Of a DNA stretch of 64,000 nt, positions 7,442 to 63,193 are shown one piece after another (the first letter of the stretch is position 1; each line of letters opens with the position of its first letter). The position numbers and the translations under genes were made by a program. The notes beneath the pieces are model-generated. The model saw only the letters and a list, made by a program, of their open reading frames with translations, did not search any database and had not been told where the DNA came from. Origin of the DNA: Saprospiraceae bacterium (GTDB lineage Bacteria; Bacteroidota; Bacteroidia; Chitinophagales; Saprospiraceae). The stretch spans positions 1-64,000 of the forward strand of contig JAIXOO010000235.1 of NCBI GenBank assembly GCA_027486765.1, written 5' to 3'.

Positions 7442-7530
7442 AGGTGATTCCTTGAGTGCCTAGGGTTTCTTAGGTGGTAAAAAAATATTATTTCACCACC
7501 TAAGAAACCAAAGGCACCTAAGCATCACCT
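7442..7530. repeat. intergenic inverted tandem-repeat element R2 (TTAGGTG-type)
   Basis: AGGTGATTCCTTGAGTGCCTAGGGTTTCTTAGGTGGTAAAAAAATATTATTTCACC against AGGTGATGCTTAGGTGCCTTTGGTTTCTTAGGTGGTGAAATAATATTTTTTTACC (reverse complement of the other arm). Confidence 0.88.
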
Positions 7531-22863: not shown

Positions 22864-22904
22864 GGGGCGACAAAAAACAAGTGATCATTTTGCCCCACTA
22901 CTTA
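22864..22904 (+). repeat. GGGGC/GCCCCACTACTAA palindromic element, short copy 1
   Basis: GGGGCGACAAAAAACAAGTGATCATTTTGCCCCACTACTTA; matches the short copy at 63153-63193. Confidence 0.85.
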
Positions 22905-23514: not shown

Positions 23515-24282
23515 ATGGAGCAGATGGAATGGCAAGAAAAACTCCGCGCCTTGAGTGCCGGAGAACTTACCCCGGATGAAGCGGCCAGTGTCCTTCGTGA
23601 AGCAGCCGAATCGGAAACAAAGCAGGCAGAATTGCAGTTTAGTCAAAAGCTGACCACGGTTTTGAAAGAACGTGACCTATTTGAAGTGAAGGGAATTGTA
23701 GCCGGGCTGATCTTGGAAGAAGGTTTGCCCGCTGCGGAACCCAGCTCCTGGCTGGGTAAATTGGGACTGAATTGGATCTTGGGCCTCTCCTTATTCCTTT
23801 TGCTTGGTACTGGAGTGTTTTTTGTCGGAAAAAGGATGGCTTGGTGGGCCATTGATCCTCAAGCTTTGGCGCAGCAATACCTTCAGCCCATGGAAAACGT
23901 GATTTACCTGGAGGACAATGAAGCGCCCGCCATCGAAGATCTACGCCAGGGGATGGCCGCGTATGATCAACAAAATTACCGGAAAGCCGCCCAGTATTTG
24001 ACGAGCTATTACGCTCAGGTACAAGACGGCAACGCTGGTCTGTTCCTGGCGATCAGCCACCTGATGGAAGGCGAAACGGATCAGGCGACGCCAATCCTGC
24101 TGAACGGCCTCCAAAAAACCGGTCCCATTCAGGAAGCCAGTCGCTGGTACCTGGCCCTGGCCTATTTGCAAAGAGCGGATACCCAGGCTGCCATCAACAC
24201 CCTGGAAGCCATCCCGGCCAGCAGCATTTACGGCCCCGAAGCCCAGAAATTACTTGAATCCCTTACGGGCGAAAAAAAATAA
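23515..24282 (+). CDS. membrane-anchored TPR-like protein, probable sigma partner
   Basis: Central TM (WILGLSLFLLLGTGVFFVGKRM) then TPR-like helices; 11 bp after the sigma gene. Confidence 0.65.
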   Translation: MEQMEWQEKLRALSAGELTPDEAASVLREAAESETKQAELQFSQKLTTVLKERDLFEVKGIVAGLILEEGLPAAEPSSWLGKLGLNWILGLSLFLLLGTGVFFVGKRMAWWAIDPQALAQQYLQPMENVIYLEDNEAPAIEDLRQGMAAYDQQNYRKAAQYLTSYYAQVQDGNAGLFLAISHLMEGETDQATPILLNGLQKTGPIQEASRWYLALAYLQRADTQAAINTLEAIPASSIYGPEAQKLLESLTGEKK

Positions 24283-24386
24283 ATGTTCATTTTGCCAAAG
24301 GATTAGATAAGTAAACGATTCATTTCAAGTGCCTTATCTAATCCTTTGGCTCGGAAAAATGAACGTTTATTTTTGCCCACTACTAA
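24267..24386 (+). repeat. GGGGC palindromic element, long copy 2
   Basis: Inner stem CCAAAGGATTAGATAAG / CTTATCTAATCCTTTGG; near-identical to the reverse complement of 39420-39542; overlaps the last codons of the upstream CDS. Confidence 0.92.
24345..24375 (+). promoter_or_regulatory. Bacteroidota-type promoter inside the repeat, facing the C1 peptidase gene
   Basis: TTTG (24345-24348), 19-bp spacer, TATTTTTG (24368-24375); fits TTTG-N19-21-TAnnTTTG. Confidence 0.65.
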
Positions 24387-24387
24387 A

Positions 24388-25893
24388 ATGAGCGATATGA
24401 AGCGCAGTTTACTGTTGTGGATGATTTTTTGGATGATTGGAATGGCCTCCCAAAGTGTGGCCCAAAATAGCGGGCTCCTCTGTTCGGAAAACAAATACCG
24501 AAGCATCCCCGTGTTGCCTTCTTACAGCGGCCTCAAGTACAATGAGGTGCCCTTGCGGGTCAGTTTGCGCCAATACTGCCCAGTGCCCGGCGACCAACAA
24601 CGTATGGGCTCCTGCGTAGGCTGGGCAGTAGGCTACGGCGCGCTCACCCTCATGCGGGCACAACGCCTGGGGCTGAACGACCCTTCCAAAATCACCCAAA
24701 TGGCCAATTCTGCCGCTTTTGTGTACAACCAAATCCGCTTGCAGTCCGACGATTGCAGCGCTGGGGCCTACATTGAAGACGCCCTGGCCTTGCTTAAAAC
24801 CAAAGGTGATTGCCTGGAAAATACGTTCAATTACAAAAAAATGGATTGCACTACAAACCCGGGCACCACCCCTGCCAACGAGGCTTTGCAATACCGCATT
24901 CAGGATTTTGCCGCAGTTTTTAACACCCAGGAAGAGCCCAAAAGTAAGATTTCCAAGGCATGTAAGGTCCTGGCCACTCAAACTCCTCTGGTCGTCGGCA
25001 TTGCCGTAACCACCGATTTTTGGGAAATCAAACCGGGTACCCAGCTTTGGGATCCGGCAGAAGACGCCCCCAGCAGCAGCCATCACGCTCTGGTTTTGGT
25101 GGGTTACGACAACGTCGAGAAACAATTTGAGTTCATGAACAGCTTTGGTGCTTCCTGGGGTCGCAATGGTTTCATTCGGATGAAGTACGACGATTTTGCC
25201 CGCTTGTGCAAATACGCCTACGTGCTGCTCCCCGAAGATCGGGCGGAATCGCTGGCACAGTTGCAACCCAATGTCCAAGAGACACCGAGTGCAAAAACCG
25301 AATTTTCCCTGAGTGGCACTTTCGCCTTCCGCAAACCCAGTGGTTACCTCAGCACCAGCGATGGGCAGGAAATCCCCTATTACGAAGAAGTCGCCACGCG
25401 TTGGAACACCGCAGCCGGGCTTTACGAAACGCAACAGGCCAGTTTTGAAGTAGGGGATGTCTTTCAATTGGTCGCCCGCGAGATTCCCCGGGGGCGTTAT
25501 GCCTATGTGTTCAGCCAAAGCCCGGGCAGCAAGGTCAATTTTCATTTCCCCAAAATGAACAACCAGGTAGCCACCGCAGGATTTGTTTTGGAAAAAACGG
25601 CGGAAATTGTCATTCCCAGCGAAGAATCCGTGTTGCAACTGCCGCTGCCAGGCGAAGACTTTTTGTGCATCATCTACAGTCATAGCCCCATTGCGGACAT
25701 CAGCCGCCGGGTTGAACAACTAGAAAAAAGTTCGGGCGAATTTGCCGAGCGAATCCAAAAAGTATTTGCCGACATCGCCATCCCGGCCACACAAGTGCGC
25801 TACAATGCCGATAAAATGGTCTTCAGTGCCCGACCCGACCCGGCAACGGGAAAAATCGCCGTACCTCTGATTTTAAAAGTGCTTGCACAATAG
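24388..25893 (+). CDS. papain-like (C1 family) peptidase
   Basis: Signal peptide; catalytic motifs QQRMGSCVGWAVGYGALT, SSSHHALVLVGYD, FEFMNSFGASWGRNGFIRM. Confidence 0.9.
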   Translation: MSDMKRSLLLWMIFWMIGMASQSVAQNSGLLCSENKYRSIPVLPSYSGLKYNEVPLRVSLRQYCPVPGDQQRMGSCVGWAVGYGALTLMRAQRLGLNDPSKITQMANSAAFVYNQIRLQSDDCSAGAYIEDALALLKTKGDCLENTFNYKKMDCTTNPGTTPANEALQYRIQDFAAVFNTQEEPKSKISKACKVLATQTPLVVGIAVTTDFWEIKPGTQLWDPAEDAPSSSHHALVLVGYDNVEKQFEFMNSFGASWGRNGFIRMKYDDFARLCKYAYVLLPEDRAESLAQLQPNVQETPSAKTEFSLSGTFAFRKPSGYLSTSDGQEIPYYEEVATRWNTAAGLYETQQASFEVGDVFQLVAREIPRGRYAYVFSQSPGSKVNFHFPKMNNQVATAGFVLEKTAEIVIPSEESVLQLPLPGEDFLCIIYSHSPIADISRRVEQLEKSSGEFAERIQKVFADIAIPATQVRYNADKMVFSARPDPATGKIAVPLILKVLAQ

Positions 25894-25916
25894 TCCCTAA
25901 ATAAAACCCATTCGCC

Positions 25917-28900
25917 GTGAAATCTTTTTCCTATACCCTTGCCCTGTTTTTATACTTATTTCTGCCCCTCTGTTTGTCAGCTCAGCAATTGGAGGACGAG
26001 CCCCTCATCGAGCACCTTTACGGCCGTTCTGGACAAGATCGCCTGGTTGCTATGGTTGAAAACTGGGAAGGAACCATCGCCGCGGTAGGGCAAACCAATC
26101 AGAGCAATGGTGCCGCAAAGGGCAGCAACATCTACCTCATCTTGTTGGATGAAAAGCTGAAACCAACCGCTGAGGTTTACATTGGCCGCAACGGGGACGA
26201 TGCCGCCCGCCGCATCCGCCAGGACCTGGATGGCCGCTACCTTATCGTAGGGCATTCTGAAACCCCGGCAGACCGCGACCGACAAAGGGACAAGTATTTT
26301 GGAAAAAAAGACGGCTGGCTGTTGGTAATAAACGAAGCAGGTAAAACCGAAGCGGAACTGATTTTAGGCAGCAAAGAAAACGATGTGTTCATTGAGGTTT
26401 TGCCCTTGCCGAATGGCGATAAAATAATCGTTGGCAACTCCGGCGAGCAAGCCTGGGTCTTGCGCATCAACGCCCAACTAAAGGTCTTGTGGCAAAAAAA
26501 GGTACAGTACCACGGTTTGCCTACCCAGGCCTTGGGTGCCACCTTGGGTGGAGCAGAACAAGTTTTTATCTCTGGCTACGCCGAAGAAGAATCCAGCCGC
26601 AAAATGTGGCTCGCCGCTTTTGATGGCAAAGGAAGCCAATCCTGGGGTAAAATTTTTCCCGCTGCCGAAGCCACCGAGGGCGCCAACATCATTCGCATCA
26701 ATGAACAATCTTTGGCGGTTACCGGATATGTCAACACCCCGGATCACCGGGAGGAAGGGTTCTTCTGCCGCATCGACCTCAATGGCAATGTGCAGGCTTA
26801 CAAAACCATCGGCGGGCGGGAAGACGACCGTTTGAGCAACCTATGTTTGTTGTACAATGGTGAAATCGCGCTGATTGGCCATAGTCAGTCCTTCGCACGG
26901 GGCAGCCGTCGCCCCACGGTGTGGGCAGTACGGGTCGATCAAGACGGTTTTTTGCAGGAAGAAGCTTATTACGGCAGCAAATTATCCGACGAGGGCTGCG
27001 CCATTCTGCAAAGGGGCGACGGTAGCCTGGTTGCATTGGGTGCTTCCAATCAGCAGATTTTAAAAGGGGCCCAAGGCTGGGTGGCCCAAATTGGCGAGAA
27101 GCTCGATTTGAAGCCTAACGCAGTCTCTTGGAATTACAAAGCAGGTCAACTGTATTACCCCAACGGACAATACCTGAGCCCCAATGAACGCTCTTTTTTG
27201 GCCGTCCACATCGATGCGCCACCAGGCAAGGGCTTGACCCATTTGCGGGCAAAACTCAGTTATGCTAAAAACGATTCAACCGTTACCCGAACCATCAAGT
27301 TGCCTTCCATGGCACCCGGACAAAACGAAGACCTGCACATACCGCTAGCATTGGCCATCTCCAGCGACCTTCAGGGTGAAATCCCCCTGGAGGTACAGTT
27401 GTTTCAGGGCAAACAAAAAATGGGCAGTTCCACCCGGATTCCCCTGCGGCTGGGACGTTTGAGCAAACCTCAATTGGAGCTCAGCGCAAATACTTTCCCC
27501 ACGCAGGTAGAACGAGGAACTTTACTACGGAATTCCTTCACGCTGCGCAACAAAGGGCAAGGCACAGCCCGTGCCGTAAGCCTGGAGCTGCACGGATCCA
27601 AGGGTTTACAAATCCCGAAAGCCATCAACATAGGCGACCTGGCACCCGGTGAATACCGCACCTACGAATTGCCTTTTGGAGTGCCCGCCAATTTTACGGA
27701 AGACAGCGTCTGGATTCGGGGCCGGGTGGCGGACTTGATGCTTGAACATACCCAGGTCGTGGATTGGCATTTGCCGCTGGCCGCTGCATCTGCCAATCCA
27801 CCTGCCAAAGAGAGTTTGCAAAAAGACTACCTGACTGCCGTGTGGCTGCACCCCAATCCAGATCATTACGAAGGGCGCGGGATTGTTTGGGGGGAAAATG
27901 AAATCTACGTACAAGTCAAAGCGGTATCCAACAAAACCCTGGACAAGCCTAATTTTTGCCTCGAAATCAATGGTAAACCTTGCGTTTCGGGGACAAAAAT
28001 GGACGAAGTAAGCATCAAGGGAACGGCATACAGCCGCACCTATACCCAGCGGGTGAAACTGAGCGAAGGCACTACGACCATCCGCACTAAAATGCAAAAC
28101 GAGGCGGGCAAGATAGAAACCGACCCCATTCAAATCATCTATTCGCCAAGCAAACCCAACTTACACCTGATTTCGATTGGCGTGCCTGCGGTCGATTTGA
28201 AATACACCCACCGCGATGCCCGTGATTTTGCACGGGTCATGCTGCAATCCAATGGACAACTGAACCAGCAGTTTCAAAGTGTTTTTGTCGATACCTTGAT
28301 TCAGGAAAAAACCACCGCCAAAACCGAAATCCTCAAAACCCTGCGGCGCTTGCAATACCGCTTTGCCGACCGCCAAATCGGGCCGCAAGACCTGATTTTG
28401 GTCTTCATTTCTTCCCATGGCATCAACACCCCACAGGGGGTATTTCACATTGCGGCCAGCGATTACGATGGCCCATTTTTGCAGGAGACCAGCCTGGACT
28501 TTGAAAAAGAAATCATCAACTACCTGGCCAGCATCAGTTGCCGGAAATTGTTCCTGATCGACGCCTGCCATAGTGGGGCGGGGAGTGAAGAGTATGCCAG
28601 CTCTCAACTGAGCGGGGAACGGATGAATCAATTGACCAGCGGGCAAAAGGGCTTGAGCTTGATGATGTCTTGCCGGGCCAACGAATACAGTTACGAAGAT
28701 GACCAGTGGCAAAATGGCGCATTCACGCAGGCCATGTTGCACACCATTGAACAGTTTACCCGCCGCGTACCCGGCATTGACCTGAATCAGGATGGGGCAC
28801 TCGACATCAAGGAGCTGTATACCCACTTGGAAAAAGAAGTCCCCAAACTGGTGCAAAACAAACGCCCCAAGCCCCAAACAAGCCAACAACCCCTCCTGGT

Positions 28901-28955
28901 CAGCGATCCGCTCAGTTCGCCAGTTGTATTGTTTCAATTGCCCAAAAACAAATAA
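25917..28955 (+). CDS. secreted caspase-family (C14) protease with N-terminal beta-propeller and Ig-like domains
   Basis: GTG start with signal peptide; catalytic His in LILVFISSHGI and Cys in KLFLIDACHSGAGSEEY; EF-hand-like DLNQDGALDIKE. Confidence 0.9.
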   Translation: MKSFSYTLALFLYLFLPLCLSAQQLEDEPLIEHLYGRSGQDRLVAMVENWEGTIAAVGQTNQSNGAAKGSNIYLILLDEKLKPTAEVYIGRNGDDAARRIRQDLDGRYLIVGHSETPADRDRQRDKYFGKKDGWLLVINEAGKTEAELILGSKENDVFIEVLPLPNGDKIIVGNSGEQAWVLRINAQLKVLWQKKVQYHGLPTQALGATLGGAEQVFISGYAEEESSRKMWLAAFDGKGSQSWGKIFPAAEATEGANIIRINEQSLAVTGYVNTPDHREEGFFCRIDLNGNVQAYKTIGGREDDRLSNLCLLYNGEIALIGHSQSFARGSRRPTVWAVRVDQDGFLQEEAYYGSKLSDEGCAILQRGDGSLVALGASNQQILKGAQGWVAQIGEKLDLKPNAVSWNYKAGQLYYPNGQYLSPNERSFLAVHIDAPPGKGLTHLRAKLSYAKNDSTVTRTIKLPSMAPGQNEDLHIPLALAISSDLQGEIPLEVQLFQGKQKMGSSTRIPLRLGRLSKPQLELSANTFPTQVERGTLLRNSFTLRNKGQGTARAVSLELHGSKGLQIPKAINIGDLAPGEYRTYELPFGVPANFTEDSVWIRGRVADLMLEHTQVVDWHLPLAAASANPPAKESLQKDYLTAVWLHPNPDHYEGRGIVWGENEIYVQVKAVSNKTLDKPNFCLEINGKPCVSGTKMDEVSIKGTAYSRTYTQRVKLSEGTTTIRTKMQNEAGKIETDPIQIIYSPSKPNLHLISIGVPAVDLKYTHRDARDFARVMLQSNGQLNQQFQSVFVDTLIQEKTTAKTEILKTLRRLQYRFADRQIGPQDLILVFISSHGINTPQGVFHIAASDYDGPFLQETSLDFEKEIINYLASISCRKLFLIDACHSGAGSEEYASSQLSGERMNQLTSGQKGLSLMMSCRANEYSYEDDQWQNGAFTQAMLHTIEQFTRRVPGIDLNQDGALDIKELYTHLEKEVPKLVQNKRPKPQTSQQPLLVSDPLSSPVVLFQLPKNK

Positions 28956-28956
28956 C

Positions 28957-29922
28957 ATGCTGCGCATAACCTTTAGTTTTATTACTTGCCTAATGTTGTC
29001 GATGCCCCTCTGTGCGCAACAGTTGCCCTATTTCACCCAATTCCGGCAGCACCAACCGCTGCTGAATCCCGCTTCGATCAACAGCGATTTTTTCCTCTAC
29101 GAATACAATGTATCGCTGGCTACGAGCTACCGCATGCAATGGATCAGCCACCCCGAAACGCCCCGCACTTTGCAGGCTACGGGGGAGTTCATCAGCGATT
29201 TTGGTGGGGCGTTTGAGTTGGTCACCGGGCTTTCAGTCTTGCAAGACCGCACCGGGCCATTTGGCTCAAGTGCCATACAGGGGCGCATCGGCAGCATTTT
29301 CACCAATGATCCTTATTTCGGCGGGCTTTCGGTAGGGCTGAGTATTGGCATGGTCAATCACCGCGTCAGTTCCAATCGGATTACCTGGAAAGATCTCGGG
29401 GATCCGCTGGCACCCGACATCGATTTTTCGGTGAATCAGCCCGAAGTTGGTTTGGGGGTGTTTTATTACCGCCGCATGGAAGGTGCGCTGGATGGCGACA
29501 ACATTTACCTGGGGCTGTCGGCACCGCAGTTGTTGCATGGCAATTCCCTGGTACCTGTTGGCGAAGATTTTATCCCTCTGCGGCGCGTAGCGCATTATTA
29601 CGCCACGGCGGGCTGGTACCATTTTTTCAACCAGGAAGCTTTTTTGGAAACCTCCATGTGGGCCAAATACACCCCGGGAGCACCCTTCAACTTGGATATT
29701 TATGGCCGTTTTCAGCCTGCTCGCCCCCTGTGGTTTGGGGCAGGGTTTGGCATCAATGGTCTGGCACACCTGGAGGCGGGCTTCAATGTACCGGGGCTTT
29801 TGTTTGAAGATGCCAACCTCAAGATCGGCTATGGTTTTGACTACAATATTTCCGCCTTTGATTTGCCGCTCGGCGCTTCACACGAGCTGCATTTGACCAT
29901 CCTCTTTGACACTTACCGCTAA
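28957..29922 (+). CDS. type IX secretion system PorP/SprF family membrane protein
   Basis: LPYFTQFRQHQPLLNPASINSDFFLYEYNVSLATSYRMQW...GLSIGMVNHRV; typical PorP/SprF layout. Confidence 0.9.
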   Translation: MLRITFSFITCLMLSMPLCAQQLPYFTQFRQHQPLLNPASINSDFFLYEYNVSLATSYRMQWISHPETPRTLQATGEFISDFGGAFELVTGLSVLQDRTGPFGSSAIQGRIGSIFTNDPYFGGLSVGLSIGMVNHRVSSNRITWKDLGDPLAPDIDFSVNQPEVGLGVFYYRRMEGALDGDNIYLGLSAPQLLHGNSLVPVGEDFIPLRRVAHYYATAGWYHFFNQEAFLETSMWAKYTPGAPFNLDIYGRFQPARPLWFGAGFGINGLAHLEAGFNVPGLLFEDANLKIGYGFDYNISAFDLPLGASHELHLTILFDTYR

Positions 29923-29934
29923 AAATACCCTTTG

Positions 29935-31587
29935 ATGCAAAATTCAGGCTTGTTGCGCCAATTTTTGGATACCCAACGACGTGCATTTAGACTGGTCTTG
30001 GGTTTGGAGTTGCTGGGCAGCATTCTTACGCTTTTGTTGCCATTGCTGGTCGCACAGGCCTTTGCCGAGGTGTTCGAATTTCAATCGATGCGGGGGCGTT
30101 TGTTGCAAAAAATGGGCCTGAACTTTCAGCCTAATTTTTTACTACTCCTGGGACTGGCCATCCTCGCCAAACTGGGTTTTGACTACTACCGACGCTACAT
30201 CAAGGGCTTGTTCATGGAGCGTTTTTTGACCTGGCTGCGCCAAAAGTTGTTCACGCAGCACCTGCGCATGCACGTTCAGGAATACGAAAAAACGGGCACC
30301 AGCAAGTACCTCATGCGCTTCAGCGGCGATCTGGGCAGTGCACAGCAGTTGTTGAACAAAGGTGTTTTTCAATTTTTTGCCGACGCCAGTTTGTTGGCTT
30401 TAGGGACCTTGTTGTTGCTCTGGCTCAATGTGCAGTTGGGTGGATTGATTCTGGTTTTGAGCTTGCTGGCGAGTTGGGCGGTGATGGGTTTCAATCGGCG
30501 CATCGAGCGGCTGGAAGAACAACGGCGCGACCGCAAGTCCGGCTTACTCAGTTTTGTCAACCAACGATTGGCCAATATCCTCAGCATTAAAGCCCTCAAT
30601 CGAGAAACGCCCGAGCAACATTTGTTTGCCAAACGCACCCAAAAAATACAGGCACTCGGGGATCAATACCAACAACAAGTCGCATTGCTGAACGCACTGA
30701 TTCCTTTTTTCATTTATTCATTGTTGTTGTTGGTACTGGGGGCTGTATATGTTTGGAAAAAACAAGGCGTGATTTTCCCCCAGGATGCTCTTTTTGCTTT
30801 GATTCTGGTCTTGTTGACCTGGAAACCGGTGCTGAATCGGGTGATGCAAATTGGAGTGGTGTGGAAAAAAGGTGGGATTTCTCTACGGAAAATTGATCAA
30901 TTGCTCGCCAAACCACTGGAGCCGGCGGGGGCCGATCGGGAGCAAGATTGGAAGGCTGCCCGTGTGCAAATCGATTTGCCCGAAACAGCAATGCATCCAG
31001 CGCTTCAATTTCAGTTGCAAAAGGGGGCACAGTTGTACCTGGAGCTAAACGAAAGTGTTCAATCAACTTTGATCAAATACCTGGCTGCCCTGGAGTCGCC
31101 GCCGGAGGGATCGATACAGCTGGATGAGGTAGCAAGTGGAACCTTATCGCCCAAAAGTATCCGCCGTCAATTCACCTTTGTGTCGCCACTTTTCCCATTG
31201 TACGGCAAAAACGTCCTGGAAGCGATCGCTTACAGCCGCAAACACCAGGCCAAAGCCGCCGCCATGCTGGCAGAATGGCAAGTGCTTTTCCCAGAATTGA
31301 GCACCATTCACGCGGAGACTCCCGTAACTGAGCGCACGCTATTGACCTCGGCTCAGGTACAATTGTTACAGTGGCTACGGGCTTTTTTGACCAATAAACC
31401 TTTTTGGATCTTGCAGGACGCATTTCGCGGGTTGTCAACTACAACTTGCCAGCAATTACAAGCATTATTGGAACAAAAAAAGGGCAAAACGGGGGTTTTA
31501 TTCCTTGCGGACCAGCCTCAATTTGAAAATAATTGTAAAAAAATAAGTTCAGCCCAGGTAACATTCTCCGCCAGCACCGATATGTAG
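29935..31587 (+). CDS. ABC-exporter-like half transporter with degenerate nucleotide-binding domain
   Basis: Six-TM exporter-type domain followed by an NBD-like region lacking Walker A, signature and Walker B consensus. Confidence 0.78.
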   Translation: MQNSGLLRQFLDTQRRAFRLVLGLELLGSILTLLLPLLVAQAFAEVFEFQSMRGRLLQKMGLNFQPNFLLLLGLAILAKLGFDYYRRYIKGLFMERFLTWLRQKLFTQHLRMHVQEYEKTGTSKYLMRFSGDLGSAQQLLNKGVFQFFADASLLALGTLLLLWLNVQLGGLILVLSLLASWAVMGFNRRIERLEEQRRDRKSGLLSFVNQRLANILSIKALNRETPEQHLFAKRTQKIQALGDQYQQQVALLNALIPFFIYSLLLLVLGAVYVWKKQGVIFPQDALFALILVLLTWKPVLNRVMQIGVVWKKGGISLRKIDQLLAKPLEPAGADREQDWKAARVQIDLPETAMHPALQFQLQKGAQLYLELNESVQSTLIKYLAALESPPEGSIQLDEVASGTLSPKSIRRQFTFVSPLFPLYGKNVLEAIAYSRKHQAKAAAMLAEWQVLFPELSTIHAETPVTERTLLTSAQVQLLQWLRAFLTNKPFWILQDAFRGLSTTTCQQLQALLEQKKGKTGVLFLADQPQFENNCKKISSAQVTFSASTDM

Positions 31588-31613
31588 TCGAATAACATCA
31601 AAAACGACTACAC

Positions 31614-32663
31614 ATGAAAACCAAAATCAAAAAAGCCCAGATTTGTGCTGCCATCGAATCCTTTGAAGTCAATGTAGAACTAACCAATACTTATACCCCT
31701 AAAATGGGTGATGTAGGAATATTCAGGGTCGTGATGGCCAATTCCGCAGCTTTGATGGATGGTCATGGCGTGGCCCGTCACCTGTTTGAAGAAGACATCA
31801 TCATGGCCGCTTTTGGCAATCGTTATGCTACCAGTCAGATTGAAGGATATGTACCTGAGCAGCCAACGATCAATTGCCAATTGTTGGGCCGTGGAGGCGT
31901 AGTGGGCAGCATGAAGACTTTGAATGCCACTGTCCGCAATCAACCAGCCGAACTGGAACTGCTTGGTTACGCGGTTGGTGCCAACGGCGCTGTGCTCAAC
32001 ACCATTAAGGCGGACCAGTTGACCCGCTTCAGCCCCCGGAAGATTAAAACCAAGGTGATTTTGTCGATCGGGACTTCAATGGACAGTGGCAAGACCACGA
32101 CTGCCGCTTATTTGTGCGCTGGACTGAAAAAAAATGGCCACCGCGCCGCTTACATCAAACTTACGGGTACGGCTTTCCCCAAAGATGCGCGTTTTTGCGT
32201 GGATCGTGGAGCGGATTTGGGCATTGATTTTGCTCAGTATGGCTTCCCTTCTACCTTCATGTGTTCGGAGCAAACCCTGCTGGATTTGTACCAATCATTG
32301 GTTGATTTGGCGGTTGCAGAAGCCAATCCCGATTACATTGTCATGGAAATAGCCGATGGCATCCTGCAGCGCGAGACAGCGCTTTTGCTCAACAATTCAC
32401 GCTTTATGGATACGGTACATCAGGTGATTTTTTCTTGTGGGGACAGCATGGGTGTACGAGCTGGCCTGGATGTACTGCTGCAAATGGGCATTCGTCCCTT
32501 TGCGATTTCGGGCTTATTCACCTCCAGCGAGTTGTTGATTCAAGAGGTAGAGCGAGTGTGTAGTACTCCAATCTTACGCTTATCTGATTTGTTGGAGGGT
32601 ACTGAATTGACCTACTTGCTGGAGGAAAAGCCGATGCCAGTGGCGTTGCGGGCCGTGGCTTGA
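31614..32663 (+). CDS. P-loop NTPase, DUF1611 / dethiobiotin-synthetase-like
   Basis: P-loop LSIGTSMDSGKTTTAAYLCAGLKKNGHRAAYIKLTGT; YIVMEIADGILQRET. Confidence 0.65.
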   Translation: MKTKIKKAQICAAIESFEVNVELTNTYTPKMGDVGIFRVVMANSAALMDGHGVARHLFEEDIIMAAFGNRYATSQIEGYVPEQPTINCQLLGRGGVVGSMKTLNATVRNQPAELELLGYAVGANGAVLNTIKADQLTRFSPRKIKTKVILSIGTSMDSGKTTTAAYLCAGLKKNGHRAAYIKLTGTAFPKDARFCVDRGADLGIDFAQYGFPSTFMCSEQTLLDLYQSLVDLAVAEANPDYIVMEIADGILQRETALLLNNSRFMDTVHQVIFSCGDSMGVRAGLDVLLQMGIRPFAISGLFTSSELLIQEVERVCSTPILRLSDLLEGTELTYLLEEKPMPVALRAVA

Positions 32664-32691
32664 ATCAATCAACGTGTACTGGATTGGGTGT

Positions 32692-32740
32692 AAAAAGGGC
32701 ATTCCGAAGATCAACTTCGGGATGCCCTTTTTTGCTTTTT
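32692..32740 (+). terminator. rho-independent terminator at the end of the protease/caspase run
   Basis: GGGCATTCCGAAG-ATCAA-CTTCGGGATGCCC-TTTTTTGCTTTTT. Confidence 0.88.
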
Positions 32741-32780
32741 ACAACGTTAAAAGTTTAGTACACGTAACCGAATAGTATTT

Positions 32781-33106
32781 AACGTGAGTTTTGAATTAAT
32801 TAATTTTTTTACCGCAGAGTCTCGCAGAGTAAACACAGAGTTTCTCAGAGTTTTATTAGTTTTTAGGAGTTTTGCCACCTCTGGTGGCTCGAGGTCGACT
32901 ACGATTAAAATTTGATCGTTAGCCATTTAGTGTTCATTCAATGCGCCTCTGAGTACGCTTAGCCACCGAAGGTGGCCTGAACTCTGCGAAACTCTGTGTT
33001 TACTCTGCGAGACTCTGCGGTAAAAAATATGGTGGAAGAATAGCTTTTTCGTCAAAAAAAATAATAACCCATTAATATTCAATGCAAAAAACTCAAAACT
33101 CACGTT
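32781..33106. repeat. nested inverted tandem-repeat element R3 (CGCAGAG-type)
   Basis: Outer AACGTGAGTTTTGA / TCAAAACTCACGTT; inner ACCGCAGAGTCTCGCAGAGTAAACACAGAGTTTC / GAAACTCTGTGTTTACTCTGCGAGACTCTGCGGT; plus GCCACCTCTGGTGGC and GCCACCGAAGGTGGC. Confidence 0.9.
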
Positions 33107-33108
33107 AT

Positions 33109-34029
33109 TTAAGCAAAAACCGATTTGACAGACAAAGACCTTTGTACAAAAGCCCAAGCTTTCTCCAATTCAAAGAAGGACAAAAAGATCAAACCGGTTG
33201 TGTGGTACGGAAAATCGATGCCCATGATCAGGTAAATGCCCCAATGCATCGACAAAGTAAGTGCCGCCCAAATCCAGGTCAAACGTTTGTTCAACAACAC
33301 CAATGGTGCTCCTAATTCAAGAATCAAAGCACCAAAGCCCATCAAAAAAAACAGCCAGGTGTGCGGATACAGCCATTCAAACAAGGGCGTTGCACTACTA
33401 CCGAGCATTTCTTTGCGCAAGGCATCCACCGCAATTTGTGAACGCATGGCACTGCCATCGATCCAGGACCAGGCCAGGTCGCCCATAACCTTTGCCAAAC
33501 CAGATAAAAAATAAGCAGCAACCGTAGCTGCGCAAATCAGTTTGATGGGCCAGCCATAACGCCAGTGGGCACCAGGCGCAGCCTGAGCGTGGCGACTCAG
33601 CCGATCCAGCGAAAGGGCATCCGCTGCTGCGGCCCATCCGATGATAAAAACTGTGAGCACGAGGGAATTGTAATTGTGGTAAATCATCGACCAGGAATTG
33701 CGGTAACACATAAAAAAGAGCAGTGCCATTGCAAAACCTGGGCCAGTCCAGCGGTATTGCCAGCCTAGAATATAAGCAATGTTCAGAGCAATGCAGGCGA
33801 GGAGTAAGTACTGAAATGTTTCGGGGGACAAGGGACTGGATAGTAACTTGGCCAAACCAACGGGCTCGAACAGCGATGCATCCGACTTGGAAAGCCGTTG
33901 CAACATACTATAGCGATCCAATAAATACCACAAGGAGAAACACCCTGTAGCTATTCTCAAGATGGCCAAACGCAGCGGGGAGATGGCCGCAAACCAATAT
34001 TCCTGAAGTTGGGCGAGCAGTTTTTTCAT
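33109..34029 (-). CDS. HTTM-like multi-TM protein
   Basis: AISPLRLAILRIATGCFSLWYLLDRYSM...YRNSWSMIYHNYNSLVLTVFIIGWAAAADALSLDR; ATGA overlap with upstream gene. Confidence 0.7.
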   Translation of the reverse strand: MKKLLAQLQEYWFAAISPLRLAILRIATGCFSLWYLLDRYSMLQRLSKSDASLFEPVGLAKLLSSPLSPETFQYLLLACIALNIAYILGWQYRWTGPGFAMALLFFMCYRNSWSMIYHNYNSLVLTVFIIGWAAAADALSLDRLSRHAQAAPGAHWRYGWPIKLICAATVAAYFLSGLAKVMGDLAWSWIDGSAMRSQIAVDALRKEMLGSSATPLFEWLYPHTWLFFLMGFGALILELGAPLVLLNKRLTWIWAALTLSMHWGIYLIMGIDFPYHTTGLIFLSFFELEKAWAFVQRSLSVKSVFA

Positions 34030-34493
34030 AGCTTGACGATTTTTTGGGTGCACAATACCTTTTCCTTTAGGGGAGTTTTGTCCCCTATTTCAAAATAGAT
34101 TTCAAAGTTGTAAGTCCCCTTTACCACCTCAATTCGTTCGAGATTTTGGTACTGTGGGTCCTTACTTTTGGCCAGGCGACGGGCCACTTTTTTAGCCAAT
34201 TTTTTCGATTTTCCGTTTTTGCATTGTTTGATGATTTGGCGGCGCACTTGATTGAAGCCTCCGTTGCCAATGTAATGGTAAGGGATGTGGTAGCGCCGTT
34301 GTTGTTCATCATAACCGACTACATAGCGCAGGGTGTAAGTAGCCTCGCGTTTTTTGGAAAACATGGGATAATACGAGAGTGGGAAGTTATCCTTTGGTGT
34401 TTTGCTCCAGTTTTCCCCAACTGGAGACAACACCAACAACAGCACAACAATGCTGAAAATCGCCGCAATGGCCTTGTGTTGATTGATTTCCAT
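34026..34493 (-). CDS. hypothetical membrane-anchored protein, partner of the HTTM-like gene
   Basis: N-terminal TM; 4-bp stop/start overlap with the next gene. Confidence 0.6.
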   Translation of the reverse strand: MEINQHKAIAAIFSIVVLLLVLSPVGENWSKTPKDNFPLSYYPMFSKKREATYTLRYVVGYDEQQRRYHIPYHYIGNGGFNQVRRQIIKQCKNGKSKKLAKKVARRLAKSKDPQYQNLERIEVVKGTYNFEIYFEIGDKTPLKEKVLCTQKIVKL

Positions 34494-34583
34494 GATAGAA
34501 TGGTTTTTGATCCATATCTATATGGGTTGGCAGGGAAAATGTTACCGGGAGCTTGTTTACATTTGTGCTTATACCTTAAAAAG

Positions 34584-34946
34584 ATGCAACTCAGACTCCT
34601 GGTCATCCGCAGCGCCAATCCGGCCCAACTGGCTCAATTCTACACCCAACTCGGCTGTACCTTTGAGCAACATCGGCATGGCACAGGCCCACTGCACTAT
34701 TCTTGCACTATTGATAAAACGGTATTGGAAATCTACCCTTTGGCCAAAGGGCAAGTAGCTGCTGATCCAAACTTACGCTTGGGTTTTGAGATTGAGCAGT
34801 TTGAATTGGTGTTGGAAAAACTGACTGAGCAAGGAGGTAAGATCATTCAGGCTCCGTATGAGAGTGAGTTTGGCTGGATGGGTGTAGTAGAGGATCCGGA
34901 AAGGCGAAAAGTAGAGTTGTATAAAAGTGAAAATAAAAAAGGGTAG
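34584..34946 (+). CDS. VOC-family (glyoxalase/bleomycin resistance-like) protein
   Basis: MQLRLLVIRSANPAQLAQFYTQLGCTFEQHRHG...FGWMGVVEDPERRKVELYK. Confidence 0.82.
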   Translation: MQLRLLVIRSANPAQLAQFYTQLGCTFEQHRHGTGPLHYSCTIDKTVLEIYPLAKGQVAADPNLRLGFEIEQFELVLEKLTEQGGKIIQAPYESEFGWMGVVEDPERRKVELYKSENKKG

Positions 34947-34975
34947 CAACCTGAAATTGCTACCCTTTTTTATTA
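34938..34975. terminator. bidirectional terminator between convergent genes
   Basis: AAAAAAGGGTAGCAA-CCTGAAA-TTGCTACCCTTTTTT. Confidence 0.88.
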
Positions 34976-36340
34976 ATCCGGCTTGATCGCCGCCATATTC
35001 TCTTTCATCCAGGGCTCCAAATTTGGACAACCCTGATACGTCCGATCGATGAGGATAAAAGTTTTCCGGATCCTTTCATCCACCCATTTGTTCACAATTT
35101 CATTGCGTTTGGATTCGATGGCGGCCTTTTGGATTTTGGCATAATCTTGCGCCAGGTTGGCTTTGTGTGGCGTGGTGCGCGACATCAGTTTCACCAAACG
35201 GAAGAAATAATCCCCGGCATCGTCACGGAATTCGATCGGTTTGGATACCGAGTTGACTTTCATGGTATCAATCGCGAAGTAGATATCGGGATCGAGGTCA
35301 CCCACTTCAAAGAAGGTATTGCCCGAGGTAGCGTTCACCATCCGGCCATCGTTGTTGAAACTTTGTACATTTTTGTCCGAAAACTTCTTCACTGCGCGGG
35401 AAAAAGAGAGCGAGTCTTTCAGCAGCATGGTTCTTACGGTATCCATGTGGAGTTTGCCCAGAGAAACATCGTCATCGGTGATTTCTGGACGAATCAGGAT
35501 GTGGCGCACGTGGATGGAGTTCCCCCGCCGGCCCAACATCTGAATGATGTGGAAGCCGAATTGGGTTTCAATCACAGGAGACACTTCCAATTCTTCCAAC
35601 TTATAAGCCGCCGCTTCAAATTCGGTAACGTACTTGCCTCGCTTGGCGAAGCCCAAATCACCACCACCACGGGCAGAACCATCATCGGAGAATTTTTTGG
35701 CCAATTCCGCAAAATCCTCTTTGCCATCTACAATCCGCTTGCGGATGTCGTCGAGTTTGGCCATGGTCACGCGTTTTTGCTCGGCGTTGACTGGCACCTT
35801 GTGTACAATTTCGCCCACTTCTACTTCGGAGCTGAAGTAGGGTAAACTGTCTTTGGGAATCCGCCGGAAAAAGTCCTTCACTTCTGAAGGCGTAACCGTT
35901 ACGTCGGTCATGATTTTATTGCGCATCCGTTCGATGAGCAGGTTGTTGCGCAAGTCCTCGCGGAATTGCTCTCGTACCTCATTCACGGTTTGGCCATAAT
36001 ATTCTTCAAACTGTTTGAGGTCGTCGTTCATGTAGCTGAGAATGCGCTCAATCCGGGCATTCAACTGGCTTTCCACCTCTTCGTCTTTTACCTCGATACT
36101 GTCCAGTTTGGCCTGGTTGAGCAGCAGTTTGTTCACCAGTACTTGCTCGACCAGCATACAACGTGCATCGGGTGGCACTGTACCATTGCGTTGGGCTTTG
36201 GTATAGGCGTACTGCTCCTCTACTTCGGACAATAGGGTGATTTCCCCACCGACGGTGGCGACCATTTTGTCCAAAATTTGCTTCTGCGCGGTTGCTGCCA
36301 TTGACAAAGTCAACAAGACAGTAAATACTAAATACCTCAT
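34973..36340 (-). CDS. surA: SurA-type peptidylprolyl isomerase
   Basis: Signal peptide; N-terminal SurA-like region; parvulin domain (GEIVHKVPVNAEQKRVTMAKLDDIRKRIVDGKEDFAELAKKFSDDGSARGGGDLGFAKRG). Confidence 0.85.
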   Translation of the reverse strand: MRYLVFTVLLTLSMAATAQKQILDKMVATVGGEITLLSEVEEQYAYTKAQRNGTVPPDARCMLVEQVLVNKLLLNQAKLDSIEVKDEEVESQLNARIERILSYMNDDLKQFEEYYGQTVNEVREQFREDLRNNLLIERMRNKIMTDVTVTPSEVKDFFRRIPKDSLPYFSSEVEVGEIVHKVPVNAEQKRVTMAKLDDIRKRIVDGKEDFAELAKKFSDDGSARGGGDLGFAKRGKYVTEFEAAAYKLEELEVSPVIETQFGFHIIQMLGRRGNSIHVRHILIRPEITDDDVSLGKLHMDTVRTMLLKDSLSFSRAVKKFSDKNVQSFNNDGRMVNATSGNTFFEVGDLDPDIYFAIDTMKVNSVSKPIEFRDDAGDYFFRLVKLMSRTTPHKANLAQDYAKIQKAAIESKRNEIVNKWVDERIRKTFILIDRTYQGCPNLEPWMKENMAAIKPD

Positions 36341-36359
36341 GATGTTTAAGTTCGTGAGC

Positions 36360-36447
36360 TCCAAGGTTCCAGGGTTCCAAAGTTCCAGGGTTCCAAGGAT
36401 AAAGCCTCGAACCCTGGAACTTTGGAACCCTGGAACCTTGGAACCTT
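36360..36447. repeat. inverted tandem-repeat element R4 (TCCAAGGT, period 8)
   Basis: 33-bp perfect stem CCAAGGTTCCAGGGTTCCAAAGTTCCAGGGTTC (36361-36393) / 36409-36441 with 15-nt loop. Confidence 0.95.
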
Positions 36448-36451
36448 AAAG

Positions 36452-37306
36452 TTAAAATATTTCAATATTGCCTTTTTTTAAGGCAATTTCGTACAAATCT
36501 TCCCGTTTGCGCTGCAATAAATCCAATTTGCGCTTGTGCAGCACGAAGGTACGCGCTTGTTGTTGAATGTACCCTAAAGGGGCAATTTCTTTCCGATTTT
36601 TTAACTCCAGCAAGCGGAAGTAATAAACAAACTCGCCATCACTTTGGCGAAATTCCCGCTTGGAGGCGATGTTGTCGGCAGTGATGGTGCCTTTGGGCAT
36701 CACCGAACCAATCACATCTACCTTGTGCCAAATGCTGTCAACGAGGGTATGCGCGGTGGCATATTTTTGGCAATAAGCCTCCAACTTGGAGAGATTGCTG
36801 CCTCTTGGTTTGGTCCAAAAGTTCACCAAACTATCCGTTTTGGGAACCGGAGCGGCTATTTTGATGAAGTAGCAGCGAATGATGGGCGTTTCCAGCTCGT
36901 ACTGCTCCTTGTTTTGTTCATAAAAACCCTGTAACTCAGTTTTGGTTACGGTAGAGTCCAGCAGTTGTTCTACCAAAACCTGCTCGTAGTTGTTGCGGAT
37001 CAACGAACGCCGGTAATCCCTTACCAACTGGTCAATATTCAGATCAGGTGGCAGGTTTTTTTCAGCTTCGTGCATCAACAATTCCTCGCGCACCCAGCGG
37101 CTCACAAAAGCTTGAATGATCAAAAAACTGTCGGCGCGGGAAGCTTCTTCGGGGAACATGTTTTCCAGATCCGAAAGGTGCAACTCCCGGTTAAAAACAC
37201 GTGCCAGCAACCGATCTGAGCCTTGGTCTGATTTCCAGTCACAGGCGACCAAGGTCGCTGCCAGTGCGAAAAACACTAGAAGGTTCAAGCTCCACTTACC
37301 AAACAT
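36452..37306 (-). CDS. SurA/PpiC-like lipoprotein
   Basis: Lipobox-like LVAC; SurA N-terminal-like helices; lies between two PPIase genes on the same strand. Confidence 0.65.
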   Translation of the reverse strand: MFGKWSLNLLVFFALAATLVACDWKSDQGSDRLLARVFNRELHLSDLENMFPEEASRADSFLIIQAFVSRWVREELLMHEAEKNLPPDLNIDQLVRDYRRSLIRNNYEQVLVEQLLDSTVTKTELQGFYEQNKEQYELETPIIRCYFIKIAAPVPKTDSLVNFWTKPRGSNLSKLEAYCQKYATAHTLVDSIWHKVDVIGSVMPKGTITADNIASKREFRQSDGEFVYYFRLLELKNRKEIAPLGYIQQQARTFVLHKRKLDLLQRKREDLYEIALKKGNIEIF

Positions 37307-37320
37307 AGCTGTTGGGGAAA

Positions 37321-37436
37321 GTTGAGAAAGTTGAGAAGGTTGAGAAGGTTTAGGCTTCCGTAACGACTTAGACATTGACATTGTCAAAATCGCTGCGGAA
37401 GCCTAAACCTTCTCAACTTACTCAACCTTCTCAACT
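37321..37436. repeat. inverted tandem-repeat element R5 (GTTGAGAAG, period 9)
   Basis: GTTGAGAAAGTTGAGAAGGTTGAGAAGGTTTAGGCTTCCG / CGGAAGCCTAAACCTTCTCAACTTACTCAACCTTCTCAAC. Confidence 0.93.
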
Positions 37437-39405
37437 ATTTTTTAATTAAACTTTCAAATACCGCTTTTTCAGTCTTCACCGGATATTGCTTTTTCAGCTC
37501 ATTGACCCATTGTACTTCCAGGTAGTCCTGATAATCAGCAATGATGTAGCCTCGTGCTTCATTGAGCATCTTGTCTTGTGCAGGGATGATTTTTTCAACC
37601 TTGCGGAAAGAATACTCATTGTTTTGCCGGTCAAATTTGGAAATGGTCACTTCTCCCGGCTTCCATTCTTTCAAGTCAGTAGCTTCGGGAGACTTGCTTT
37701 TTTCCAAAATTTGTTCCTCTACCCGAATGCCAATGGTGTCTGACTTGTTGTATTTGGCCAAGACCTCCTCCGTTGAATGTTTGAGTGCATAGTCACGCAT
37801 GGGCTCCAAAACCGATTTGGAAATACCGTCGACAAAAAATACCGTAGTCACAGCCCGATCTTCCCAGCGGTACTTGCCTTTCAGGGTTTTGAAGTAACTT
37901 TTCAACCCCACGGTATCCTGTGAAGCCTTGTCCCATACGTTGATGCGGGTCGCTTCAAACAAAAGAATACCTTCTTCGTACTCGCGCAACAAGGCTTTGA
38001 ACTCTGGGTATTTTTGATCCAGGCGTTGCTCCTCAAAGCGCAGGCAAGATTCATTGACGTATTCCTCGTACAGGTTTTGTACTGCTGCATCGAGACTGGT
38101 CTCGCCCGACATTCGCATGCGCTGACGGGTAGCATTTTCAGCAAATTGTGCAAAGTCGCCCATGGTGTGCGCCTTTTTCGCCATCGTAAACAGCACCTTG
38201 GTACTAGGTGGTTGAGGTGCGTGCCACTGAAAAGTGAAAAAGGTATCGTTCAAGGTCGCGGCAAACTCGGTCAGCAGATTGGGATAATCCTTAAAGCCAG
38301 TTTCGCGCTTGATGTCGTCCACCATGGCCTTACGTGCCATTTCAAAGCGGGCATCTCGTTTGATGCGTGCTTCTAATTGACCACGCATTTGGTCATAAGG
38401 TTGTATCTCTTTTTTGCTGATGCGCTTAATGATGTGCCAACCCACGCTCGTTTCAAAAGGTTTTGAGTACTCTCCATCCTTCGCTACGCTGTAAGCTGCG
38501 TCTTCAAATGCTTGTTCGAAGCGGTTGATGGTCACAAAACCTACATAACCGCCCTTGTCTGCGGTGCGGGAATCGTTGGAATTTTTGGCGGCCATTTCTT
38601 CAAAATTGGCACCACGTTTTAGCGCAGCATACATCGTATCGATCTGTGCCTTGATCACAATGGCACTGCTGCCTTCGGTACGCATTAGAATATGGGCCAC
38701 TTCAACCTCACCACGCGCTGGGCGTTTGCTGTGCACTTTGAGCAAATGGTAGCCTGCACTGGTGCGGATGGGCATCGAGAGTTGCTCAAAAGGCAGGCGA
38801 TAAGCCGCACTTTCCAAGGCGTAAAACCCATTGGGGAACATGGCTGTAACATAGCCGATGTGGCCACCGTTGGTAGCGGCAGACTTATCCGCCGAAACCT
38901 GTTGGGCTACGGTCGCAAATTTCTCACCCTTAAGCAAACGGGCACGCGCCTCCATGGCCAGGCGATGGGCTTCGAGGGTATCGGTACCTTTGGCCTCGGC
39001 GGGCAGGGCAAAAAGGATGTGGCTAATGTCAAGATCGAATTGAGAGCGCTCAAACAGCTCTTTGGTCAATTTCTCGGTCACCTGCTTGTTCAACAGGTAC
39101 GAATCGGCCAACTGACGGCGGTAACCAGCCAGTTCTTCCTGGAGTGCCTGCACGGTGTCCAGTTGCATGTCTTTGGCCTTCTTTACCTTGAGTTTGAACT
39201 TGGTGTACAAATCCAAATACTCTTGTAGGGTGGCGCGGGAAAAATCCGCATTTTTTCCATTGGTTTTGGAATAGATGTACTTGAATTCGGAAACATGCAC
39301 CGGGGTGCCGTCTACCGTAAACAACACCGGGTCTTTATCCTGTGCCTGGGTGAAAACGATCAGGCTGAAAAAGCAGCCCAGAAGTAGCAAAAGGTTCTTT
39401 GCCAT
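37435..39405 (-). CDS. peptidylprolyl isomerase with two PpiC (parvulin) domains
   Basis: Two parvulin domains (ISHILFALPAEAKG...KSAATNGGHIGYVTAMFP; VAHILMRTEGSS...SRTADKGGYVGFVTINRFEQAFEDAAYSVAKDGEYSKPFETSVGWHIIK). Confidence 0.88.
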   Translation of the reverse strand: MAKNLLLLLGCFFSLIVFTQAQDKDPVLFTVDGTPVHVSEFKYIYSKTNGKNADFSRATLQEYLDLYTKFKLKVKKAKDMQLDTVQALQEELAGYRRQLADSYLLNKQVTEKLTKELFERSQFDLDISHILFALPAEAKGTDTLEAHRLAMEARARLLKGEKFATVAQQVSADKSAATNGGHIGYVTAMFPNGFYALESAAYRLPFEQLSMPIRTSAGYHLLKVHSKRPARGEVEVAHILMRTEGSSAIVIKAQIDTMYAALKRGANFEEMAAKNSNDSRTADKGGYVGFVTINRFEQAFEDAAYSVAKDGEYSKPFETSVGWHIIKRISKKEIQPYDQMRGQLEARIKRDARFEMARKAMVDDIKRETGFKDYPNLLTEFAATLNDTFFTFQWHAPQPPSTKVLFTMAKKAHTMGDFAQFAENATRQRMRMSGETSLDAAVQNLYEEYVNESCLRFEEQRLDQKYPEFKALLREYEEGILLFEATRINVWDKASQDTVGLKSYFKTLKGKYRWEDRAVTTVFFVDGISKSVLEPMRDYALKHSTEEVLAKYNKSDTIGIRVEEQILEKSKSPEATDLKEWKPGEVTISKFDRQNNEYSFRKVEKIIPAQDKMLNEARGYIIADYQDYLEVQWVNELKKQYPVKTEKAVFESLIKK

Positions 39406-39419
39406 ATCAAGTTTTATTT

Positions 39420-39542
39420 TAGTAGTGGGGGCAAAAATAAGCGTTCATTTTTTCTGAGCCAAAGGATTAAATAAGGCACTTAAAATGAATCGTTTTCTTA
39501 TCTAATCCTTTGGCAAAATGAACACTTATTTTTTTCCGCCCC
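39420..39542 (-). repeat. GGGGC palindromic element, long copy 3
   Basis: Reverse complement near-identical to 24267-24386; sits directly upstream of the PpiC gene. Confidence 0.92.
39432..39463 (-). promoter_or_regulatory. Bacteroidota-type promoter inside the repeat, facing the PpiC gene
   Basis: Minus strand TTTG (39460-39463), 20-bp spacer, TATTTTTG (39432-39439). Confidence 0.65.
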
Positions 39543-39562
39543 AAAGCGTCGCAAAAATATAC

Positions 39563-46341: not shown

Positions 46342-46455
46342 TAACTAAGGTGTTCTAAGGTGACTAAGGTGGTTCAAAAAAAGAAATAAAGGATGGTTTT
46401 GAACACTTTAGACGTTTTATTGAACCACCTTAGGCACCTTAGAACATCTTAGTTT
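46342..46455. repeat. inverted tandem-repeat element R7 (CTAAGGTG-type)
   Basis: ACTAAGGTGTTCTAAGGTGACTAAGGTGGTTCA / TGAACCACCTTAGGCACCTTAGAACATCTTAGT. Confidence 0.9.
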
Positions 46456-52165: not shown

Positions 52166-52200
52166 ACTAAGTAGGGGGGCAATTTTTTTTGTTGCCCTAA
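52166..52200 (+). terminator. hairpin after the glucosaminidase gene, loosely similar to the GGGGC element
   Basis: AAGTAGGGGGGCAATTTTTTTTGTTGCCCTAAG. Confidence 0.45.
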
Positions 52201-63152: not shown

Positions 63153-63193
63153 TAGTAGTGGGGCAAAATGATCACTTATTTTTTTATTGCCCC
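63153..63193 (-). repeat. GGGGC/GCCCCACTACTAA palindromic element, short copy 4
   Basis: Reverse complement GGGGCAATAAAAAAATAAGTGATCATTTTGCCCCACTACTA; matches 22864-22904. Confidence 0.85.

Follow-up and report, generated by a model that had tools for sequence, protein, structure and literature searches.

A family of MITE-like mobile hairpins dispersed between the genes of Haliscomenobacter

Introduction

The closest known elements to the one described here are BrickBuilt of Porphyromonas, the Correia elements and ERIC. BrickBuilt, a MITE of Porphyromonas gingivalis, shares with our element a Bacteroidota host, an intergenic location and IS5-like affinities, and its promoter activity has been measured in E. 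coli (PMC4596501). However, it has a 23-nt minisatellite base, GAGACC-type ends and known IS5 relatives, and it is not described as a single covarying hairpin (PMC4596501). The Correia elements of Neisseria are likewise small MITEs that lie upstream of genes and carry promoter sequence, but they belong to another phylum and their promoters have been shown experimentally, whereas ours is read from sequence (PMC10969869). ERIC, the 127-bp enterobacterial palindromes, resemble our element in size, palindromic form, intergenic location and copy number, which runs from tens to hundreds (PMC10969869, PMC2759123). Their host phylum is different, and we set them apart from our element by description rather than by sequence comparison.

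GTAG-tagged REPs and their RAYTs (PMC3733652) are a further point of reference: our element has GTAG at one end of its hairpin and its short forms are REP-sized, but it duplicates 3 bp at its target, and in its own genome no RAYT gene flanks it. A last piece of background concerns promoters. Transcription in Flavobacterium johnsoniae starts 4-5 nt after the -7 element of the Bacteroidota, TAHHTTTG (PMC6847099).

Our element is abundant in a little-studied genus. Its kind is ordinary; the conservation of its loop and of its pairing is unusual, and it is a new family of MITE-like mobile hairpins. We analysed a stretch of 64,000 nt from a Saprospiraceae bacterium (the window), followed by searches of that genome (G000) and others.

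Two long copies and their neighbours

Two long copies, A and B, lie in the window with the following parts and neighbours (position, strand, feature):

23515..24282, +, TPR-protein gene upstream of A; its frame enters the element, which provides the stop codon
24263..24265, +, left target triplet of A, TTA (3-bp register from the flank-triplet test)
24266..24383, +, long copy A, CGGGC...GCCCACTAC; H. hydrossis has an empty site at the orthologous position
24295..24311, +, 5' side of the inner stem of A, CCAAAGGATTAGATAAG
24312..24332, +, apical loop of A, with the conserved motif ACGNTTCATTTYAAGTG at 24315-24331, which is shared with a sister family whose stems are unrelated
24333..24349, +, 3' side of the inner stem of A, CTTATCTAATCCTTTGG
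24368..24375, +, tail of A, TATTTTTG, which matches the Bacteroidota -7 element perfectly (consensus TAHHTTTG, PMC6847099)
24384..24386, +, target triplet on the right of A, TAA, differing from the left one at a single base
24388..25893, +, gene for a C1 (papain-like) peptidase, whose first in-frame ATG lies 4 nt beyond A
37435..39405, -, gene for a PpiC-type peptidyl-prolyl isomerase, whose ATG lies 16 nt beyond B
39419..39421, -, target triplet on the right of B, TAA
39422..39542, -, long copy B, GGGGC...GCCCCCACTAC; the corresponding H. hydrossis site is cleanly empty
39432..39439, -, tail of B, TATTTTTG
39543..39545, -, left target triplet of B, TTT
39552..39559, -, native TATTTTTG directly upstream of B, which the empty site of H. 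hydrossis has as well

The initial annotation of this DNA described near-identical copies of about 120 bp in opposite orientations, each a nested palindrome, and both descriptions hold. Repeat detection and direct reading of the window give A and B as an inverted-repeat pair of 98 nt with 92% complementarity. As single-stranded DNA, both fold far more stably than their shuffles, at -30.5 kcal/mol for A (z = -9.65) and -32.1 kcal/mol for B (z = -8.38), with none of 200 shuffles equally stable in either case. The arms also read as had been reported, i.e., TTTG-N19-TATTTTTG in the tail arm of A, TTTG-N20-TATTTTTG in that of B, and TATTTTTT outward in the head arm, and start codons do adjoin both copies. 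The trailing sequence given there has to be divided: its CACTAC is part of the element, but the subsequent TAAAAT is flank.

Copy number, distribution and short forms

Copies were gathered by pattern and covariance-model searches, and all copy numbers are lower bounds. With copy A as the query, its own genome (7.72 Mb, 514 contigs) gave at least 40 scored places at 88-100% identity. There, a pattern for the inner arms matched 189 times (two arms per element) versus twice for a reversed control, and a pattern for the loop matched 110 times versus three for its control. At least 113 distinct copies, A and B being two, were collected from this genome and at least 189 from the genus, and none of those collected lies within a gene.

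Searched with the covariance model, all five Haliscomenobacter genomes contain the element, the window's own and that of the H. hydrossis type strain (G002) among them, while 36 further genomes from the same bacterial family or order gave no hit. As far as tested, the element is therefore confined to Haliscomenobacter. A pattern scan of a contig collection and BLAST searches of plasmids and phages, sets from which near relatives may be missing, returned no match to the element.

Shorter forms are also present in the window:

22864..22901, +, short form, 38 bp, flanked TTA/TTA, equal to the long form deleted between its TTTTGCC repeats
52171..52197, -, probable 27-bp remnant, GGGCAACAAAAAAAATTGCCCCCCTAC, flanked TTA/TTA
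63155..63193, -, short form, 39 bp, flanks CAA/TAA

The short forms (38-39 bp) match the long form minus the segment between two TTTTGCC repeats, and they probably arise by slippage across the hairpin.

One locus of the same genome, L049, was considered as a larger family member and is better read as a short form containing a nested, unrelated palindromic repeat of ~255 bp. This repeat, GTAACGTGAG...CACGT (L049 1508-1800; G000:C136:61687-61979, - strand), was apparently inserted at TAA, and about 15 more near-full copies of it occur in G000, G001 and G003. Other intergenic palindromes in the window (7451-7522, 32805-33027, 36360-36442, 37320-37436 and 46343-46454) consist of short repeated words (e.g., TCCAAGGTTCCAGGGTTCC and AGAAGGTTGAG), and their relation to the element is not obvious. 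The window also has 231-nt tandem repeats (77-residue) at 18096-18698, within an ORF on the - strand (16998-19142).

Empty sites and target duplication

When the window is aligned to H. hydrossis, the sites of A and B are both empty there. At the site of A, the stop of the H. hydrossis TPR gene and the start of its peptidase gene almost touch. At the site of B, H. hydrossis reads TATATTTTTGCGTCGCTAAAATAAAACTTGACATGG, while here B lies between CGCTTT and TAAAATAAAACTTGATATGG, having inserted between the native -7 motif (39552-39559) and the ATG. The reciprocal case also exists: H. hydrossis has a copy of its own between the ECF sigma gene and the TPR gene, a place where the window lacks one. 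As a side observation, the insertion of A altered the C-terminus of the TPR protein relative to H. hydrossis, with the stop now inside the element (window 24263-24282).

Among the 155 copies with clear ends, the triplet before GGGGC equals the triplet after CACTAC in 80, compared with a shuffled expectation of 21.8 +/- 3.8 and a maximum of 36 in 5000 shuffles. These matching triplets include AAA, CAA, TTT and TTG, and the adjoining positions match at the level of chance. We therefore conclude that insertion duplicates 3 bp. The preferred target is C-TWA-G. At A and B, the two flanking triplets agree only partly (TTA/TAA and TTT/TAA).

The suggestion that the element is mobile and copy-propagated is thus borne out by the empty sites, the 3-bp duplication and the number of copies in the genus. 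Judged by site differences between species, it has been active recently: 2 of 42 sampled copies in G003 share a site with sampled copies in G000, a figure that is a rough guide to turnover.

The element is a non-autonomous, MITE-like mobile element. It has many dispersed short copies (~120 bp) with no coding capacity, a target site duplication, empty orthologous sites and terminal inverted repeats. These repeats are GGGGC...AAATAAGTG at both ends, with 5 extra bases on the right, so the ends are asymmetric (GGGGC on the left versus GTAGTGGGGC on the right, read inward).

Hairpin structure and covariation

In the main family (family 1; consensus GGGGCGATAAAAAAATAAGTGYTCATTTTGCCARAGGATTAGATAAGTAAACGNTTCATTTYAAGTGYCTTATCTAATCCTYTGGCTCARGAAAAATGARCACTTATTTTTGCCCCACTAC, ends GTAGTGGGGC/GGGGCGATAAA), the element is 118-124 bp long and nearly all of it is one hairpin. 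A 25-bp outer stem and a 17-bp inner stem form an almost continuous 42-bp stem, with an apical loop and a CTCARG bulge. The sister family (family 2) has about ten copies and ends in GTATGACGC/GTAACGC. Its stem positions are mostly different from those of family 1, but it retains the loop AACGSTTCATTTYAAGTG and a CTCA bulge.

With several hundred copies across five genomes, the structure can be read by covariation. An alignment of 46 copies has 97.1% of its pair cells paired (81.4% when shuffled), 175 cells with double changes (44.3 when shuffled) and a covariation score of 0.420 (0.141 when shuffled), a signal that comes partly from the contrast between families 1 and 2. None of 500 shuffles reached this score, and slid controls stayed at or below 0.140. 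Compensated pairs also segregate within family 1, where consensus pair 22/100 is TA (87), CG (43) or AT (29) and pair 34/82 is AT (96), GC (60) or TA (8).

Stem variants that at least 10% of copies share behave differently from private ones. The shared variants are 159 Watson-Crick, 43 G-T and 16 mismatched, and the private variants are 15, 13 and 39, respectively (shared versus private, Watson-Crick versus rest: p about 2e-13, which overstates independence because cells count copies, not events). Since most shared stem changes are compensated, unlike most private ones, propagation appears to depend on pairing. Read most simply, pairing is required in propagating lineages and decays after insertion. 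Together, the kept loop, the replaceable stems and this pattern of compensation suggest that folding matters for movement. Template switching between the arms could also keep them alike, but it leaves the kept loop and the replaced stems unexplained.

A more specific possibility is that recognition acts on the element folded as single-stranded DNA or RNA, through the apical loop and bulge that are conserved, while the stems can be exchanged freely and insertion still duplicates 3 bp. We regard this as rather unlikely. If true, it would be a form of mobilisation unlike the double-stranded end recognition of DDE enzymes and unlike HUH/REP transposition.

Mobilising enzyme and proposed mechanism

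IS5-family elements of Haliscomenobacter are found as C-TWA, IS, TWA (e.g., CTAA, then GAGTATG...CATACTC, then TAAG). Six copies carry this mark, four of them in G002 and a single one each in G000 and G004. Like these IS (L269, L270 and L271), our element duplicates the 3 bp of TWA within C-TWA-G. However, the IS are autonomous and the element is not, and their ends are GAGTATG, GAGCATG and GAAGCCG. Regarding derivation from IS5, target and duplication length are thus shared and the ends do not match.

Searches with PF01609, PF13586 and PF01797 gave DDE_Tnp_1, DDE_Tnp_1_2 and Y1_Tnp hits, and no transposase with the element's ends was among them. As candidates for a parent IS, the ends of DDE_Tnp_1 and IS5-like loci were compared in all five genus genomes, and none match the element. 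In G001 the IS5 query was without match, though this genome is copy-rich. The mobilising enzyme is probably a trans-acting one of the DDE, IS5-like type, which we infer solely from the fact that target and duplication length are identical; the transposase families searched did not yield its gene. Separately, G002 has IS701-family elements (L262-L266) with ends CTGGACTTTATCCC, CTTAG/CTAAT-like targets and an apparent 5-bp duplication.

We propose that a transposase acting in trans would move the element, making a staggered cut, mostly at C-TWA-G, that duplicates 3 bp; the insertion and the duplication are seen from the flanks and empty sites. Folding of the element as a single strand (DNA or RNA) would be necessary for its propagation. 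Insertions persist between genes, frequently at operon junctions or in short leaders, where the tail -7 element may incidentally transcribe some downstream genes. As a whole, this account (a MITE-like, non-autonomous Haliscomenobacter element with 3-bp-duplicating insertion, a need for folding and an incidental tail -7) is in our judgement likely to be right. Speaking against it are the asymmetric ends, the partly differing triplets at A and B, the lack of a transposase with the element's ends in the families searched, and the missing IS5 match in copy-rich G001.

Promoter activity and other explanations

The initial annotation saw in these copies a mobile promoter cassette that co-regulates unlinked genes. 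The mobile part of this claim stands, but a co-regulating cassette is not established, because the orientation bias is weak and the motif is not better kept near starts. We consider it unlikely that the element is a selected portable promoter, with the tail driving the downstream gene and the copies forming a dispersed co-regulated set. The tail does have a perfect TAHHTTTG, intact in 154 of 179 family-1 copies, whereas the head has an outward TAnnTTTG in 0 of 179, and the expected leaders of about 10-25 nt are ordinary for the phylum (PMC6847099). Yet TAHHTTTG is no better kept in the copies with a start near the tail (36 of 41) than overall. The -33 TTTG is present in 20 of these 41 copies and in 62 of the 138 others.

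Gene positions were taken from simple ORF calls treated identically on both sides of the element. A start lies within 30 nt of the tail in 41 cases and of the head in 20 (p = 0.01), but several cut-offs were examined and from 40 nt upwards the difference weakens. The check for gene-start bias that had been suggested thus gave a result between bias and randomness. Between co-directional genes, 59 copies point tail-to-start and 41 head-to-start (p = 0.09), and 36% of tails face a gene end. A native TAnnTTTG lies 45 nt or less upstream of the insertion in 9 of the 41 start-near copies, copy B included, versus 7 of the 138 others, which argues against a selected promoter. So do the lack of the TAnnTTTG spacing in family 2 and the fact that, for most sampled sites, no sharing between species was seen. 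The data therefore do not support a selected promoter cassette that co-regulates genes. Incidental promoter activity of the tail is plausible from its sequence, and with a perfect phylum-type -7 element at one end, the element may rewire some genes by chance.

Another reading gives the hairpin a function in the host, as a conserved cis-acting RNA or a binding site for a host protein, with its mobility being incidental; we consider this very unlikely. Such a function could account for the conserved loop and bulge that families 1 and 2 share despite their replaced stems, but private mutations of single copies are mostly uncompensated and the neighbouring genes occur in all orientations. In addition, no Rfam family was found in the window at gathering score, the permissive matches being generic hairpins.

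Also very unlikely is that the element is a REP whose movement depends on a Y1/HUH transposase (RAYT): the right end read inward is GTAG(T)GGGGC, i.e., GTAG then the hairpin (GTAGTGGGGC), and the element's own genome has six Y1_Tnp genes, but Y1 transposition is not expected to give a 3-bp target duplication, here seen as matching triplets outside the element, and ~120 bp is long against 20-40 bp. We set aside the RAYT/REP membership suggested by the GTAG end because of this duplication and because the element flanks none of the six Y1_Tnp genes. One Y1_Tnp (IS200-like) gene in this genome (L069 1297-2059, G000:C79) is flanked by short hairpins in inverted copies (e.g., CCCACGACTAAAGTCGTGGG).
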